Shown one piece after another: positions 9,839 through 38,076 of a stretch of 64,000 bases of DNA. Position numbers and translations under genes: made by a program. The notes beneath the pieces were generated by a model that was not told the DNA's origin, made no database searches, and saw only the letters and a program-made list of their open reading frames with translations. The stretch's first letter is position 1, and every line of letters begins with the position of its first letter. Origin of the DNA: Hyphomicrobium sp. (GTDB lineage: Bacteria; Pseudomonadota; Alphaproteobacteria; Rhizobiales; Hyphomicrobiaceae); assembly GCA_003987725.1 (NCBI GenBank), contig RXJH01000003.1:371524-435523 (forward strand), written 5' to 3'.

Positions 9839-10162
9839 ATGATTCGTGAGGCCAGGGTCGGAATGCAGTTCGAGGCCAGTGTCGCGCTAGCGGCAGTGTT
9901 CATGATCGGGGCTTTCATATTGGATTGGCCCCGCGCCGTCGCCGGACTGCTGCTCGGCGTGATCTGCCGCTATCTGCCCTATGGAACGATCACGATTCCG
10001 GCCGGCGTTGTTTTGGTCTCGGGCGCGGCAGAATTGGTCTATCCCTGGTTCGGCCGCACGACCGGGCCGCACTTCTGGGGCTTTTTCTTCGGGCTCTTTG
10101 CGGTCGCAGGCACCGCGTCCAGCCTTTACATCACCATACGCAACCTGAAAGACCGGCTGTGA
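9839..10162 (+). CDS. Small membrane protein inserted between nuoC and nuoD
   Basis: The 107-residue protein is almost wholly hydrophobic with about four membrane segments (roughly 10-26, 31-46, 49-64 and 76-99). It ends in the cytosolic-looking tail TIRNLKDRL. No family was recognised. The ATG at 9839 is used; a second ATG at 9863 (99 residues) has a somewhat better AGGG in front and may be the true start. It lies 134 bp after nuoC and 10 bp before the thioesterase start, so it is probably transcribed with the nuo genes. The intergenic part contains a 7-bp hairpin (9725-9746). A role in complex I assembly would be guilt by position only. Confidence 0.65.
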   Translation: MIREARVGMQFEASVALAAVFMIGAFILDWPRAVAGLLLGVICRYLPYGTITIPAGVVLVSGAAELVYPWFGRTTGPHFWGFFFGLFAVAGTASSLYITIRNLKDRL

Positions 10163-10172
10163 GGATTTGGCC

Positions 10173-10622
10173 GTGAAAGAAACGCTTCACGCCGGAGCGA
10201 AAACCAGTTTTTCCTTTCGCGTTCCGGCCGAGAAAACGGTGCCGCATCTCTATCCCGAGGCGCACGAATTTCAGCTCATGCCGACCGTTTTTGCGACCGG
10301 CTTCATGGTCGGGCTAATGGAATGGACCTGTCTTAACATCATTGCCCCCCATCTCGAAGAGGGTGAGGGCTCGCTCGGCGTTCACATCAATGTTTCACAC
10401 CTCGCCGCCACGGTGCCGGGACAGACGGTGACTGTCGAAGCGGAGTGCACGAAAGTCGCAGGCCGCCGGGTATTCTTTCATGTGAAAGCACATGACGGGA
10501 TTGATTTAATCGGCGAGGGCGAGCATCAGCGTATGGTCGTGAACTGGCAGAAGTTTGAGCAACGCGTGAACGAGAAGGCGAAGCTCGCCAGAGTAGCACC
10601 GATTACCCGCGGGACCGTTTGA
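10173..10622 (+). CDS. FlK-like hotdog thioesterase
   Basis: The protein belongs to the FlK-type hotdog acyl-CoA thioesterase group. The GTG start at 10173 is chosen because GAGG lies 8 bp upstream; a TTG at 10167 lacks that spacing. With it, the protein has 149 residues and its Thr42, Glu50 and His76 coincide with the catalytic Thr42/Glu50/His76 of Streptomyces FlK (segments [13 protein letters not shown] and [12 protein letters not shown]). FlK's Phe36 position is Met here, so fluoroacetyl-CoA specificity is unlikely. It is followed after 2 bp by nuoD. The reaction is probably hydrolysis of a small acyl-CoA; the substrate and any link to complex I are unknown. Confidence 0.8.
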
Positions 10623-10624
10623 AC

Positions 10625-11815
10625 ATGGCCGAGACCGAGATCCGTAATTTCAATATCAATTTCGGGCCGCAGCACCCTGCCGCGCACGGCGTGCTTCGCC
10701 TCGTGCTCGAGCTGGACGGCGAGGTCGTTGAGCGCGTCGATCCGCACATCGGCCTCCTCCATCGCGGTACCGAGAAGCTCATCGAGCATAAGACGTACAT
10801 GCAGGCGATCGGCTATTTCGACCGTCTCGATTATGTCGCCCCGATGAATCAGGAGCATTCGTTCTGCCTTGCCGCGGAAAAGCTCTTGGGCCTCGAGGTC
10901 CCCTATAGGGCGCAGCTCATCCGCGTACTTTACTCCGAAATCGGCCGGCAGCTGTCGCATCTCTTGAACGTCACGACGCAAGCCATGGACGTCGGCGCGC
11001 TGACCCCGCCGCTCTGGGGCTTCGAAGAACGCGAAAAGCTGATGGTGTTCTACGAGCGCGCCTCGGGCTCGCGCATGCATGCAAAATACTTCCGCATGGG
11101 TGGCGTGCATCAGGATCTGCCGGAGAAGCTGATCGACGATATCTATGCTTGGTGCGATCCGTTCCTGAAGGTCGTCGATGATATCGACGGCCTGTTGACC
11201 GAAAACCGCATCTTCAAGCAGCGCAACGTCGACATCGGCGTCGTGTCGCTGGATGACGCTTTCGCGTGGGGTTTCTCAGGCGTGATGGTGCGCGGCTCGG
11301 GCGCGGCCTGGGACCTTCGCAAGTCGCAGCCTTACGAATGCTACGCCGACCTCGATTTCGATATCCCGATCGGCAAGAACGGCGACTGCTACGACCGCTA
11401 CTTGATCCGCATGCAGGAAATGCGCGAAGCGACCAAGATCATGAAGCAGTGCTGCGAGCTGCTGAAGTCGCCGCGCGGCAAGGGTCCGCACGTCGCCGAA
11501 AATAAGAAAGTCGTGCCGCCGAAGCGCGGAGAGATGAAGCGCTCGATGGAAGCGCTGATCCACCACTTCAAGCTCTACACCGAAGGCTTCCACGTTCCGC
11601 CCGGCGAGGTCTACGCCGCGGTCGAGGCGCCGAAGGGCGAATTCGGCGTCTATCTCGTGTCCGACGGCTCCAACAAGCCCTATCGCTGCAAGATCCGCGC
11701 TCCCGGATTCCCGCACCTCGCGGCCATGGATTTCCTGAACCGCGGCCATATGCTGGCGGACGTCTCGGCAATCCTCGGCTCGCTCGACATCGTCTTCGGC
11801 GAAATCGATCGCTGA
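10625..11815 (+). CDS. nuoD: NADH-quinone oxidoreductase subunit D
   Basis: NuoD is the 49-kDa-type subunit forming the quinone pocket with NuoB. The 396-residue protein starts at the ATG at 10625, 2 bp after the thioesterase stop; a TTG at 10619 is less likely. It has the [14 protein letters not shown] quinone-site loop near residues 14-27, the [14 protein letters not shown] segment, and the C-terminal DIVFGEIDR ending. Length matches the family. Tight spacing with the thioesterase gene suggests translational coupling. Confidence 0.97.
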
Positions 11816-11823
11816 AAACAGCT

Positions 11824-12255
11824 ATGGCGCGCGCGATCGAAACATCGATTTTGATCGCGGCGCCAGCTTCCCGCGTCTGGTCCGTCTTGATGGATTTCGG
11901 CGGTTATCCCGCATGGAACCCATTCATCCGCACCATCAAGGGTGAAAAGCAGATAGGCGCGAGGCTCGAGGTCGGTATCGAGGCCCCGGGGCTCAAAGCA
12001 CAGACGTTTCGACCCGTCGTCGTCGAAGTCGAGCCCGAGCGGGCTTTCTCCTGGCGCGGCTCGCTCCCAATTCCAGGTCTCTTTGTCGGCGTGCACCGGT
12101 TCGCGCTCAAAGCCGAAGGGGCGGACACGCGCTTCGAGCATTCGGAACGGTTTTCAGGGCTGCTTATTCCCTTCGTTGGTAGCGTCTTTGATGCCACGGA
12201 GCGCGGCTTTCGGGCCATGAACGAAGCGCTGAAGGCAAAGTCCGAAGGCCGGTAA
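11824..12255 (+). CDS. SRPBCC (START-like) family protein
   Basis: The 143-residue protein has the SRPBCC layout: the N-terminal strand and helix IETSILIAAPASRVWSVLMD, the motif GGYPAWNPFIRTI typical of this superfamily, and a long C-terminal helix (GFRAMNEALKAK). Such proteins have a deep hydrophobic ligand cavity; relatives include the Coq10 quinone-binding proteins. It starts 9 bp after nuoD, so it is certainly in the nuo transcript. Binding a quinone or lipid for complex I is attractive but inferred only from position; the ligand is not visible in the sequence. Confidence 0.85.
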   Translation: MARAIETSILIAAPASRVWSVLMDFGGYPAWNPFIRTIKGEKQIGARLEVGIEAPGLKAQTFRPVVVEVEPERAFSWRGSLPIPGLFVGVHRFALKAEGADTRFEHSERFSGLLIPFVGSVFDATERGFRAMNEALKAKSEGR

Positions 12256-12345
12256 CGGCAGTTCTGCTTGACGCGAAACGATCTGGCGCTTGTCACGAAG
12301 CCCTGGCAGATTGCGGTCAGGGCCGAGCGTCAAAAGGAGCCGCGC

Positions 12346-12825
12346 ATGCTTCCCGGTGCAGCACCGATGGTCGACAACTTGTTCTTGCTCGCCGTAGCAG
12401 CGGTCGGCTGGGGCTTGAGCCTTGCAACCTATCGCCTTTTCGCCCGCTCCCGGAGCTGGCCCATGGGCGCGCTGCAAACCGATCTCCCCTTCATTCCGGT
12501 TCTGATTGGTTTAGCCGGGCTGTTCGCCGGCCTGCTGTTCGCGACAGCCCGCGGCGCCGACGATGGCGGGTGGATGATCATCGTGCTTGGTCTTTTGTTC
12601 GCAGGGCTTTGGACGGGCTTCCTGCGCGTCGGTTCGCAGGTCGCGCTTTTCCTCGCGCCAATCGCTACGTTCCTGCTGCTGCTTGGCTGGCTCGCAGTGC
12701 CACTCGGATTTTCTGAACGCCGATGGGCAACGGAGCGTCCCAGCGAGACGCTTCAACGTCGCGGCATTCTCGCTCCGGATGACACAACGACGACGCCGGC
12801 GCCTTCGCCGAAATCGACTCCATAG
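12346..12825 (+). CDS. Hypothetical membrane protein within the nuo operon
   Basis: The ATG at 12346 follows AAAGGAG by a good spacing and gives 159 residues. The protein has about four membrane helices (roughly 9-27, 47-64, 71-90, 96-116) and a polar C-terminal tail rich in Pro and Thr (TTTTPAPSPKSTP). No family was recognised. It lies between the SRPBCC gene and nuoE, 229 bp before the latter. A TTG at 12268 would extend it by 26 residues and is less likely. Co-transcription with nuo is likely but function is unknown. Confidence 0.65.
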   Translation: MLPGAAPMVDNLFLLAVAAVGWGLSLATYRLFARSRSWPMGALQTDLPFIPVLIGLAGLFAGLLFATARGADDGGWMIIVLGLLFAGLWTGFLRVGSQVALFLAPIATFLLLLGWLAVPLGFSERRWATERPSETLQRRGILAPDDTTTTPAPSPKSTP

Positions 12826-13054: not shown

Positions 13055-14242
13055 ATGGCCGTTCGCCGACTGAATGCGGTGCAGCCTGCGCAATTCGCTT
13101 TCACGCCTGAGAATTTGGCGTGGGCGAACAAGACGATCGCCAAATATCCTGAAGGCAAGCAGGCGTCGGCGATCATCCCTCTGCTTTGGCGGGCGCAGGA
13201 ACAGGCCGGCTGGCTGCCCGAACCCGCGATCAGGCTCGTCTGCGATATGCTGGGCATGGCCCACATCCGCGGCCTGGAGGTCGCAACCTTCTACACCATG
13301 TTCCACCTTTCGCCGGTGGGATCGAAGGCCCATATACAGGTATGCGGAACCACGCCCTGCATGCTCCGCGGTTCGGGTGAACTCATCGCCGTCTGCAAGA
13401 ACCGCATCGATGGCCATTCGCACACGCCGAACGCCGACGGCACGCTGTCGTGGGAAGAGGTCGAATGCATCGGCGTCTGCGCCAACGCGCCGGTCGTACA
13501 GGTCGGTAAGGATACCTACGAAGACCTGACGCCCGAGCAGCTGACCAAGATCATCGACGCCTTTGTTGCCGGCAGGCAGCCGAAGCCGGGTTCGCAGATT
13601 GGCCGCGTGGCGTCCTCTCCGGTCACCGGCCCGACGACATTGACCGACCCCGCGCTTTACGATGGCTCTTCCATCGGCGCCTGGAAAAAGCGTTTCGAAG
13701 AAACATCCGGCGACCAAGCCGATAAGGCTGAAGAATCGCCGCCGGCGTCCGCGCTCACCTCTCCGGCCCATAAGGCCCAGGTCGAAGCGCCGGGGGAAGC
13801 CAAGGCCCCGCCGGTTCATCCGGCAGCGCTGACCGCGATGGCCAACGCCGGTCTCGTCAAGGAACTCGAAGAGCGCGGTGGCGGCAAGCCGCTGTCCGCC
13901 GGAGAAATTGATAAGATCAAGGGCGATATGATCCGTGACAGGGCGGCCGCCGCGAGCCGGAATGTCGAGCCCGAGCTGTTGAAGGAGCCGCGCGGCGGTA
14001 AGGCCGATGACCTGTCGCTGATCCCGGGTGTTTCAGCCGACGTCGTCGATAAGCTTCACGCAATGGGCATCTGGCATTTCGACCAGATTGCCAAGTGGAC
14101 GCCTCAGAACGTCGCCTGGTTCGAAGTTCAGTTGGACGGCTTTATGGGCCGTGTAACGCGTGACAAATGGATCGAGCAGGCGCAGAAGCTCGCATCCGGT
14201 TGGCGTCCGGAAAGCAAAGCCGGCAAAAGGCCGAAAGGGTAG
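13055..14242 (+). CDS. nuoE: NADH-quinone oxidoreductase subunit E with C-terminal helix-hairpin-helix-like extension
   Basis: NuoE is the 24-kDa-type subunit with [2Fe-2S] cluster N1a. Ligands are Cys97, Cys102, Cys138 and Cys142 ([21 protein letters not shown]). The protein has 395 residues against about 165-220 for a minimal NuoE. After residue 180 comes an Ala/Pro/Lys-rich linker, then a compact domain at about 316-381 beginning [20 protein letters not shown] and ending [10 protein letters not shown] closely similar domain ends ribosomal protein S2 at 37864-38058. The start at 13055 follows GAGGAG with 6-bp spacing. The extension is known in alphaproteobacterial NuoE genes but its role is not. 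Confidence 0.95.
13997..14197 (+). other. Helix-hairpin-helix-like domain of NuoE (shared with S2)
   Basis: This sub-gene segment encodes the terminal domain of NuoE. It shows a helix-hairpin-helix-like [13 protein letters not shown] followed by [13 protein letters not shown], then a second helical part ending WIEQAQKLA. Aligned by eye with the S2 tail ([35 protein letters not shown]) there are about 24 identities in about 65 positions. Confidence 0.8.
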
Positions 14243-37086: not shown

Positions 37087-38076
37087 ATGGCACTTCCTGC
37101 CTTCAACATGCGTCAGCTATTGGAAGCTGGCGTCCACTTCGGCCACCAGGCCCACCGCTGGAACCCCAAGATGGCACCGTTCATCTATGGGTCGCGCAAC
37201 AAAATCCACATTCTCGATCTGACGCAGACGGTGCCGCTGTTGCATCAGGCGCTGCTCAAGGTCTCCGACACGGTCGCCGGCGGCGGCCGCGTGCTGTTCG
37301 TCGCGACGAAGCGCCAGGCTTCCGATGGCATTGCCGAAGCCGCGAAGCGCAGCGCCCAGTACTTCATCAATCACCGTTGGCTCGGCGGCACGCTGACCAA
37401 CTGGAAGACCGTTTCACAGTCGATCCGCCGTCTTCGCCAGCTTGACGAGATCCTTGCCGATCCGCAGGGCCGCACGAAGAAGGAAATCCTGAACCTCACG
37501 CGCGAACGCGACAAGCTCAACCAGTCGCTCGGCGGCATCAAGGACATGGGCGGCACGCCCGACCTCCTCGTCGTCATCGACACGAACAAGGAAGCGATCG
37601 CCATCCAGGAAGCCCGCAAGCTCGGCATCCCGATCGTCGCGATCGTCGACACCAACTGCGATCCGGACGGCGTCGATTATCCGGTTCCGGGCAACGACGA
37701 CGCTGGCCGCGCCATCACGCTGTATTGTGATCTGATGGCACGCGCCGCTCTTGATGGTCTGGAGCGCTCGCAGGGCGCCGCTGGCGTCGACGTCGGTGCA
37801 TCCGAAACGCCGCCCGCTGAAGACCTGCCGAAGGTCGTCTTCAAGGGCATCGAAGCGCCGCGCGGCGAAGCTGATGACCTGAAGCGCATCACCGGCATCA
37901 CGCCGAAGATCGAGCAGCGCCTGAACGATGCCGGCGTCTACCATTTCTGGCAGATCGCCGACCTTACCCCGGAGTATGTCGAATCGCTCGACCGTCAGCT
38001 GAAGCTCAGGGGTCAGATCGCCAAGGAAGACTGGGTCGGCCAGGCCAAGAAGCTCGTCGAGGCAGCCACCGTCTAA
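37087..38076 (+). CDS. rpsB: 30S ribosomal protein S2 with C-terminal helix-hairpin-helix-like extension
   Basis: S2 is a late-assembling small-subunit protein. The core matches throughout: [22 protein letters not shown] at the N-terminus, then [12 protein letters not shown] and [16 protein letters not shown]. The protein has 329 residues against about 240-260 for most bacterial S2. The extra part is an acidic linker (about 231-259) and a domain at 260-324 ([20 protein letters not shown] to WVGQAKKLV). The same domain ends NuoE in this window. It leads the rpsB-tsf pair and has its own promoter and leader. Confidence 0.97.
37864..38058 (+). other. Helix-hairpin-helix-like domain of S2 (shared with NuoE)
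   Basis: Encodes S2 residues 260-324. Pattern: [32 protein letters not shown], then WVGQAKKLV; each block has its counterpart in the NuoE tail in the same order with similar spacing. It follows a flexible acidic linker, so it would project from the 30S body near the platform side. Confidence 0.8.

Follow-up and report, generated by a model that had tools for sequence, protein, structure and literature searches.

A helix-hairpin-helix-like C-terminal domain common to NuoE, ribosomal protein uS2 and other carriers of Hyphomicrobium and its relatives, a candidate nucleic-acid tether

Introduction

Complex I and the ribosome are unrelated machines, yet in a Hyphomicrobium species the complex I subunit NuoE and the ribosomal protein uS2 (S2) appear to end in the same domain, which raises the question whether the two tails are homologous and what such a portable domain can do on proteins of such different function. 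Both genes are located in the window analysed here, the whole stretch of 64,000 nucleotides of contig RXJH01000003.1 (positions 371,524 to 435,523, forward strand). A previous sequence-only reading of this DNA had placed the NuoE domain at 13997-14197, had counted by eye about 24 identities in 65 positions and had proposed a docking module that links respiration and translation. The relevant features, in window coordinates unless given as residues, are the following.

13055..14242, + strand: nuoE, complex I subunit E, 395 aa (translation; Pfam PF01257, NCBIfam)
NuoE residues 25-169, + strand: thioredoxin-like 2Fe-2S core (Pfam PF01257, NCBIfam)
13565..13990, + strand: NuoE linker, residues 171-312, between Pfam core and tail
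13991..14203, + strand: NuoE C-terminal helix-hairpin-helix (HhH)-type tail, residues 313-383 (blocks, alignment, AlphaFold2 model)
14027..14035, + strand: hairpin 1 of the NuoE tail, Gly-Val-Ser, residues 325-327 (usual carrier sequence Gly-x-Gly)
14150..14161, + strand: arginines 366 and 369 at hairpin 2 of the NuoE tail, both retained
37087..38076, + strand: rpsB, ribosomal protein uS2, 329 aa (translation, Pfam, NCBIfam)
uS2 residues 11-224, + strand: S2 core (Pfam, NCBIfam)
37765..37860, + strand: uS2 linker, residues 227-258
37861..38064, + strand: uS2 C-terminal HhH-type tail, residues 259-326 (blocks, alignment, AlphaFold2 model)
37894..37902, + strand: hairpin 1 of the uS2 tail, Gly-Ile-Thr, residues 270-272, without the second glycine
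38014..38025, + strand: hairpin 2 of the uS2 tail, Gln310 and Lys313 replacing the two arginines

Results

The tails of NuoE and uS2 are homologous

Translation gave the lengths of 395 and 329 residues that the sequence-only reading had stated, and the blocks it had picked out (ADDL, hairpin, HF-QIA-TP, QL and W-QA-KL) were all found, in order, in both tails. Alignment of the two domains, each of about 70 residues, yielded 27 identities in 66 positions; the BLOSUM62 local score was 124, whereas none of 5000 shuffles exceeded 61. The NuoE domain as delimited here encloses the range first proposed. The AlphaFold2 models possess the same helix order (mean pLDDT 85.2 for NuoE and 87.3 for uS2), and several PDB folds are common to the Foldseek match lists of both, none at E < 0.001. 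With a profile built from the five copies of the own genome, two PDB chains that bear the tail reached 98 and 89 bits and NusA, the nearest ordinary HhH domain in the PDB (E about 0.006), about 20 bits. The C-terminal domains of NuoE and uS2 are thus homologous, and their mutual similarity exceeds that to generic HhH domains, contrary to what would have refuted the sequence-only reading.

As the DNA identity over the aligned codons is only 59%, with the same codon at 17 of the 27 identical residues, one tail is not a recent copy of the other; recent copying of one gene's end onto the other was rejected on this ground and on the carrier-wise similarities of the tails described below. Among named contigs, the closest NuoE tails are those of a Proteobacteria metagenome-assembled genome (95% identity) and Hyphomicrobium facile (87%), followed by other Hyphomicrobium. 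The closest solved NuoE, 8qby_E (239 aa), is tail-less, its match to the window's NuoE stopping at residue 199. By eye, nuoF directly follows nuoE in the window, and four short open reading frames of 107, 151, 143 and 185 aa within the nuo operon (9839-12825), which do not look nuo-like, sit between the nuoC-like and nuoD-like and between the nuoD-like and nuoE genes.

The tail appears to be of the helix-hairpin-helix type. Pfam reported no HhH match on the window's NuoE and uS2, even at E 10; among tails of relatives, HHH_5 matched 24 of 32 at E up to 1 (best 3e-6), and two multi-copy carriers exceeded its cut-off of 27 bits with 78.5 and 31.0 bits. The Gly-hydrophobic-Gly hairpin is absent from the window's NuoE (GVS) and uS2 (GIT), while its second glycine, position 13 of the domain (G13), is present in 295 of 363 distinct copies of the domain family. 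Foldseek indicated, for both tail models, weak likeness to RadA/Rad51 N-lobes, Pol IV/iota and SAM domains, none at E < 0.001. A likewise non-significant likeness of both models to the kinetoplastid mitoribosome large-subunit protein 6hix chain BS reached a TM-score of at most 0.62 (query length).

Unrelated carriers share the domain

Searching the own genome (4.25 Mb assembly, 99.98% complete) identified five strong copies, namely on NuoE, uS2 and bL19 and two on one membrane-anchored protein; two further weak matches (E 0.105 and 0.33) were left out of the count. The membrane-anchored protein, about 590 residues long and Ala/Pro-rich, is predicted to have one transmembrane helix, at its N-terminus.

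Own-genome contig C8, 119335-120174: two-domain membrane protein (L005)
Open reading frame 997-1749: own-genome bL19 (L006)

The Pfam model for bL19 matched in two pieces in two genomes of the window's family, G002 and G097 (1-33 and 32-111 or 32-110), the pattern expected if the core were split by a short insertion, which by eye is rich in Lys.

Relatives associate the tail with a broad range of further proteins such as bL21, PHB depolymerase (PhaZ), ABC ATPases, RND pumps and an EAL/GGDEF protein, which brings the carriers to at least nine kinds in all. The 301 distinct carrier reading frames, drawn from 264 loci that were selected because they matched, comprise 103 NuoE, 95 membrane-anchored proteins, 26 uS2, 26 bL21, 15 bL19, 8 PHB depolymerases, 3 ABC ATPases and 25 unclassified frames, some of the latter being incomplete at the ends of the regions taken. 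Carriers were classed by blastp against single reference proteins and by a simple scan of hydropathy, which scored some Ala-rich stretches as membrane helices; on examples, Pfam confirmed the AcrB-type pump, GGDEF, EAL, ABC, PHB depolymerase, L21 and L19 cores. RND pumps and the PAS/GGDEF/EAL protein are counted within the membrane-anchored class. The latter (L245, 1532 residues, weak 7TM match) ends in four tail domains; the RND-pump-like proteins (L246-L249, 1339-1438 residues, found in two genomes of the same genus) have one or two at their C-termini, with the AcrB family confirmed by Pfam for L247 and assigned by eye to L246, L248 and L249. Four frames (L117, L152, L221 and L259) are by eye phasin-like; the NCBI model of the phasin PhaH matches L117, L152 and L259 over tail and linker, and no Pfam phasin domain was found in L117 and L259, the two tested. 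Downstream of nuoE, within at most 1.8 kb, a second tail-bearing frame is encoded in 53 of 74 named NuoE-carrier loci, mostly of Rhodobacteraceae and Hyphomicrobiales; in the examples listed, a low-complexity linker connects a transmembrane hairpin to the tail.

At least one copy was detected in 57 of 61 sampled genomes of the window's order, on NuoE in at least 36/61, uS2 in at least 32/61, bL21 in at least 27/60 and bL19 in at least 11/60, these carrier counts being lower bounds from coordinates matched by eye between tables, with the table of the class sample used for G071. In an even sample of the class the tail was present in 8 of 77 genomes. Sampling the phylum gave 31 of 120 genomes, of which a single one, with a weak match (E 6e-7), falls outside the class. 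Eight of the 61 genomes of the order have a single detectable copy (uS2 in four, NuoE in two, PhaZ and a membrane protein in one each), and three genomes from which all detected copies were retrieved (G122, G125 and G126) are devoid of a membrane-anchored copy. The composed consensus found no match in a phage collection and a phage origin was rejected, as was spread by plasmids, since the eight plasmid records matched by the NuoE tail are all predicted to be non-mobilizable and seven are over 2 Mb.

A tree of 165 tails over 70 columns had little resolution, with 4 of 162 inner branches starred; tails from the same kind of carrier group together on it (51 changes versus a shuffled mean of 98) without forming single clades. 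Of 12 carrier pairs tested, the tails of uS2 and bL21 were more alike within a genome (0.627) than across genomes (0.566), a difference reached in 4/5000 permutations. The pairing of NuoE and uS2 is one among many and not special. With at least nine kinds of carriers, a special link between respiration and translation is not supported; a shared module with a common partner, the other half of that proposal, is.

Two predicted hairpins with conserved residues on a net-acidic domain

Residues conserved among the 363 distinct copies are W57 (363), Q60 (358), D4 (349), R51 (332) and G13 (295), besides R54 (325 of 361). G13, R51 and R54 are located at the two predicted hairpins and are proposed here to form a binding site. 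Averaged over 331 copies, hairpins 1 and 2 carry charges of +2.0 and +2.1 and the remainder of the domain -6.25, the mean net charge being -2.3. The linkers, Ala- and Pro-rich in most classes and less so in bL19, range in net charge from -18 to +17 with no charge pattern in common.

The membrane-anchored tails appear to be cytoplasmic. Among the 86 of 95 membrane-anchored carriers covered by the scoring of Lys/Arg topology, those with a single helix (n = 28) are richer in Lys/Arg after the helix in 24 cases, before it in 2 and tied in 2, with a weaker bias in those with two helices (n = 58; 32 versus 8, 18 ties); this predicted topology agrees with the placement of protein-O discussed below.

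The proposed site is lost in the window's family from tails that remain under selection

Outside the window's family, G13, R51 and R54 are intact together in 99/99 distinct NuoE copies, 9/9 bL19, 8/8 PhaZ, 3/3 ABC, 26/28 bL21, 20/24 uS2 and 109/120 membrane or unclassified copies. Inside the family the site is intact in 0/14 uS2, 0/12 bL19, 3/15 NuoE and 13/31 membrane or unclassified copies. In the own genome, the second hairpin glycine is missing from four of the five copies, and both arginines are missing from those on uS2 and bL19; the window's NuoE has both arginines without G13 and its uS2 none of the three residues. Throughout the 13 genomes of the genus, neither uS2 nor bL19 has G13, and the membrane protein has it, as Gly-x-Gly, in its last domain but not in its first; NuoE has it in 3 and is without it in 10 (counting a truncated copy of G004 as NuoE). 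Position 51 is Gln in all 13 uS2 tails and in bL19 Ala in 12 and Gln in one. As exceptions, one uS2 tail (G006) keeps R54 and a bL19 tail from another genus of the family (G097) keeps R51. In G013 and G020, which belong to other families, the site is complete in every NuoE, uS2, bL19 and bL21 tail seen, G020 encoding an additional copy with Asp13 and Thr54.

Tails of bL19 and NuoE from the window's family are nearest to tails of the same carrier in other families, and its uS2 tails are about equally similar to PhaZ, uS2 and NuoE tails elsewhere and less similar to the other tails of the family. The loss of G13, R51 and R54 from uS2 and bL19 thus looks parallel rather than copied. Copies without G13 also tend to be without R51 (Fisher p 8e-22) and R54 (4e-23) in counts that ignore ancestry, and a test on independent pairs provided only two supported pairs. 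A bL21 tail was found in none of three family genomes checked (frames of 131, 126 and 135 codons).

The site-less uS2 and bL19 tails are under purifying selection, with a median dN/dS of 0.153 (67 of 78 pairs usable) and 0.150 (76 of 78) respectively; the NuoE tail has 0.135 (30 of 66) and the first and second domains of the membrane protein 0.234 (42 of 78) and 0.119 (51 of 78). In two close comparisons of uS2 the tail (dN/dS 0.05-0.07) is more constrained than the linker (0.16-0.21), whereas in 4/4 comparisons of NuoE the linker (0.085-0.122) is no less constrained than the tail (0.128-0.236). As the uS2 and bL19 tails have lost the site and are still constrained, DNA binding cannot be their sole function, and nucleic-acid binding as the only role of the domain in this organism was rejected.

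Discussion

The same conserved residues on otherwise unrelated carriers imply a common partner, which is likely and most probably a nucleic acid; for NuoE and uS2 this is what we infer. Three observations favour nucleic acid over other partners, namely the case of PhaH, the motif at the hairpins and the polarisation of charge. The tail can thus be considered a portable HhH tether which grips a polyanion, most likely nucleoid DNA or RNA, without sequence specificity, a reading to which we assign about an even chance. The flexible linker would give the tail reach away from its carrier, the face formed by the two hairpins with G13, R51 and R54 would hold DNA or RNA as PhaH reportedly does, and a tail on a membrane, ribosomal, respiratory or granule protein would keep the respective machine near the nucleoid. 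Binding of nucleic acid by the NuoE and uS2 tails, and the role of the three residues in it, would follow by analogy, as would a nucleoid tether on complex I or on a transporter. The net-acidic domain (-2.3) and a NuoE linker no less constrained than the tail are points against the tether. With the site degraded on uS2, bL19 and partly NuoE, the tails there must do something else or more; in this organism they have probably lost or changed the contact with nucleic acid and are kept for a second binding role. More tentative, and less likely than not, is the wider proposition that alphaproteobacteria use one mobile nucleic-acid tag to keep complex I, photosynthetic reaction centres, PHB granules, transporters and, by way of uS2, bL19 and bL21, ribosomes at the nucleoid, which would be an unrecognised layer of cell organisation. 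In the window's family, which has no bL21 tail in the three genomes checked, the tails on uS2 and bL19 would then have switched partner in parallel.

Alternatively, all tails could dock on one conserved protein partner which itself does not possess the tail. HhH domains can bind proteins; the AR2 domain of NusA binds the C-terminal domain of the RNA polymerase alpha subunit and SuhB. NusA entries are the nearest HhH sequences outside the domain family in the PDB (E about 0.006), although this match is weak; the conservation of tails without the hairpin site, the net acidity of the domain and the parallel, apparently uncopied change of one family's tails, as if they tracked one changing partner, can also be read in favour of a protein. 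Such a partner would, however, have to serve ribosomes, complex I, RND pumps and PHB granules alike, and we know of no single protein that is a partner of these four together. With PhaH in addition described as binding DNA in a review (PMC13052382), a protein partner appears unlikely.

A third possibility is that tails bind each other, membrane copies with one to four domains recruiting the soluble carriers to the membrane. Such a division of labour could be seen in the last domain of the membrane protein, which keeps Gly-x-Gly in 13/13 genomes of the genus while the first domain, uS2 and bL19, and in 10/13 genomes also NuoE, are without it, and the polarised charge and the weak fold likeness to SAM domains would be compatible with self-association. 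In 8/61 genomes, however, the single detectable copy could pair only with itself, so that the partner need not be another tail and a membrane scaffold built of the domain is not required; moreover, G122, G125 and G126 have no membrane-anchored copy, and of the 12 carrier pairs only uS2 and bL21 are clearly alike within genomes (4/5000 permutations), NuoE and the membrane protein coming next (169/5000) and the other ten being weaker. Mutual binding is therefore improbable as the common function. Very improbable is a dispensable appendage without common function, spread by fusion and easily lost, for which the patchy occurrence (8/77 genomes of the even class sample), the tail-less 8qby_E, the absent bL21 tail in three genomes of the window's family and a NuoE tail no more constrained than its linker could be invoked, but which is at odds with at least one copy in 57/61 genomes of the order, a median dN/dS of 0.12-0.23 in the five domain classes of the own genus (pairs with usable dS) and the retention of W57 in 363/363 and Q60 in 358/363 distinct copies.

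If the nucleic-acid tether holds true, complex I, a subunit of the reaction centre, three proteins of the ribosome, transporters and storage granules of alphaproteobacteria would all bear one attachment tag, and the arrangement of ribosomes, membrane and chromosome would become testable by clipping single tails. The parallel loss of residues in two ribosomal proteins of one family allows tails that have the proposed site to be compared with natural counterparts that lack it.

Parts of this picture are already known: the tail on NuoE, S2 and L21 from NCBI models, the HhH domain on PhaH (PMC13052382) and the tail on protein-O (PMC12079452). New here is, from sequence comparison, a likely site G13/R51/R54 that is intact in most carriers and lost in parallel from uS2 and bL19 of the window's family. 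Among open-licence PMC papers, no literature that links PhaH, NuoE and ribosomal carriers was found, with bL19, RND and EAL/GGDEF carriers and the parallel loss outside the scope of that search.

The mention in the sequence-only reading of such tails on NuoE, S2 and L21 was borne out by the NCBI models PRK12373 (NuoE), PRK12311 (S2) and PRK12278 (L21), whole-protein models which include the tail, but which name the whole protein and neither name the tail nor link it across models; NCBIfam models for bL19 and PhaZ cover only the core in the carriers tested. The orthologous group COG3743, labelled 5' DNA nuclease, is presumably the database name for this kind of domain. Pfam identified only the carrier cores and no nuclease domain in NuoE or S2. 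An H3TH domain assigned to COG3743 on a Halomonas PHA polymerase, read as a sign of DNA binding by the authors of that work (PMC8686332), suggests relatives outside the class.

The closest known system with a reported activity is PhaH, a phasin of Caulobacter crescentus whose C-terminal domain is homologous to the NuoE and uS2 tails. The primary paper on it is Salinas et al. 2023 (doi 10.1111/mmi.15124). The C-terminal part of the NCBI PhaH model (NF045508) matches the NuoE tail at E 6e-12 and the uS2 tail at E 7e-15 and finds 5/5 copies of the own genome, none above the whole-protein cut-off of 250 bits; with 47.0 bits for NuoE and 56.8 bits for uS2, neither is a whole PhaH phasin. In 14 control genomes the model matched only in Caulobacter vibrioides and Methanocaldococcus jannaschii, one of the two, presumably Caulobacter, exceeding the cut-off; given the match in M. 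jannaschii, weak matches to it are not wholly specific. According to the review, PhaH sets the position of PHB granules along the nucleoid, its N-terminal part binding the granule and its C-terminal end binding DNA nonspecifically in dependence on the HhH domain (PMC13052382). That no function was established, as the sequence-only reading had it, is correct for NuoE and S2 and overlooks PhaH. There are differences, as PhaH joins the tail to a granule-binding part whereas the tails of NuoE and uS2 sit on enzyme and ribosome cores, and as DNA binding is reported in these sources for PhaH only, while the copies in the window are without part of the likely site.

Two structurally characterized chains have a C-terminal domain of the same family, protein-O of the RC-LH1 complex of Dinoroseobacter shibae (PDB 8yy9) and the chain of PDB 9wqv named 41 kd complex I subunit; unlike the NuoE and uS2 carriers, both start with an N-terminal transmembrane hairpin. 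According to the 8yy9 authors, the protein-O gene is located between nuoE and nuoF, the ends of the hairpin are assigned to the cytoplasmic side, and the C-terminus is described as similar to the C-termini of NuoE, its function being termed obscure (PMC12079452). If the tether proves true, it would provide a testable function for this obscure C-terminal domain of RC-LH1 protein-O and for that of rhizobial NuoE.
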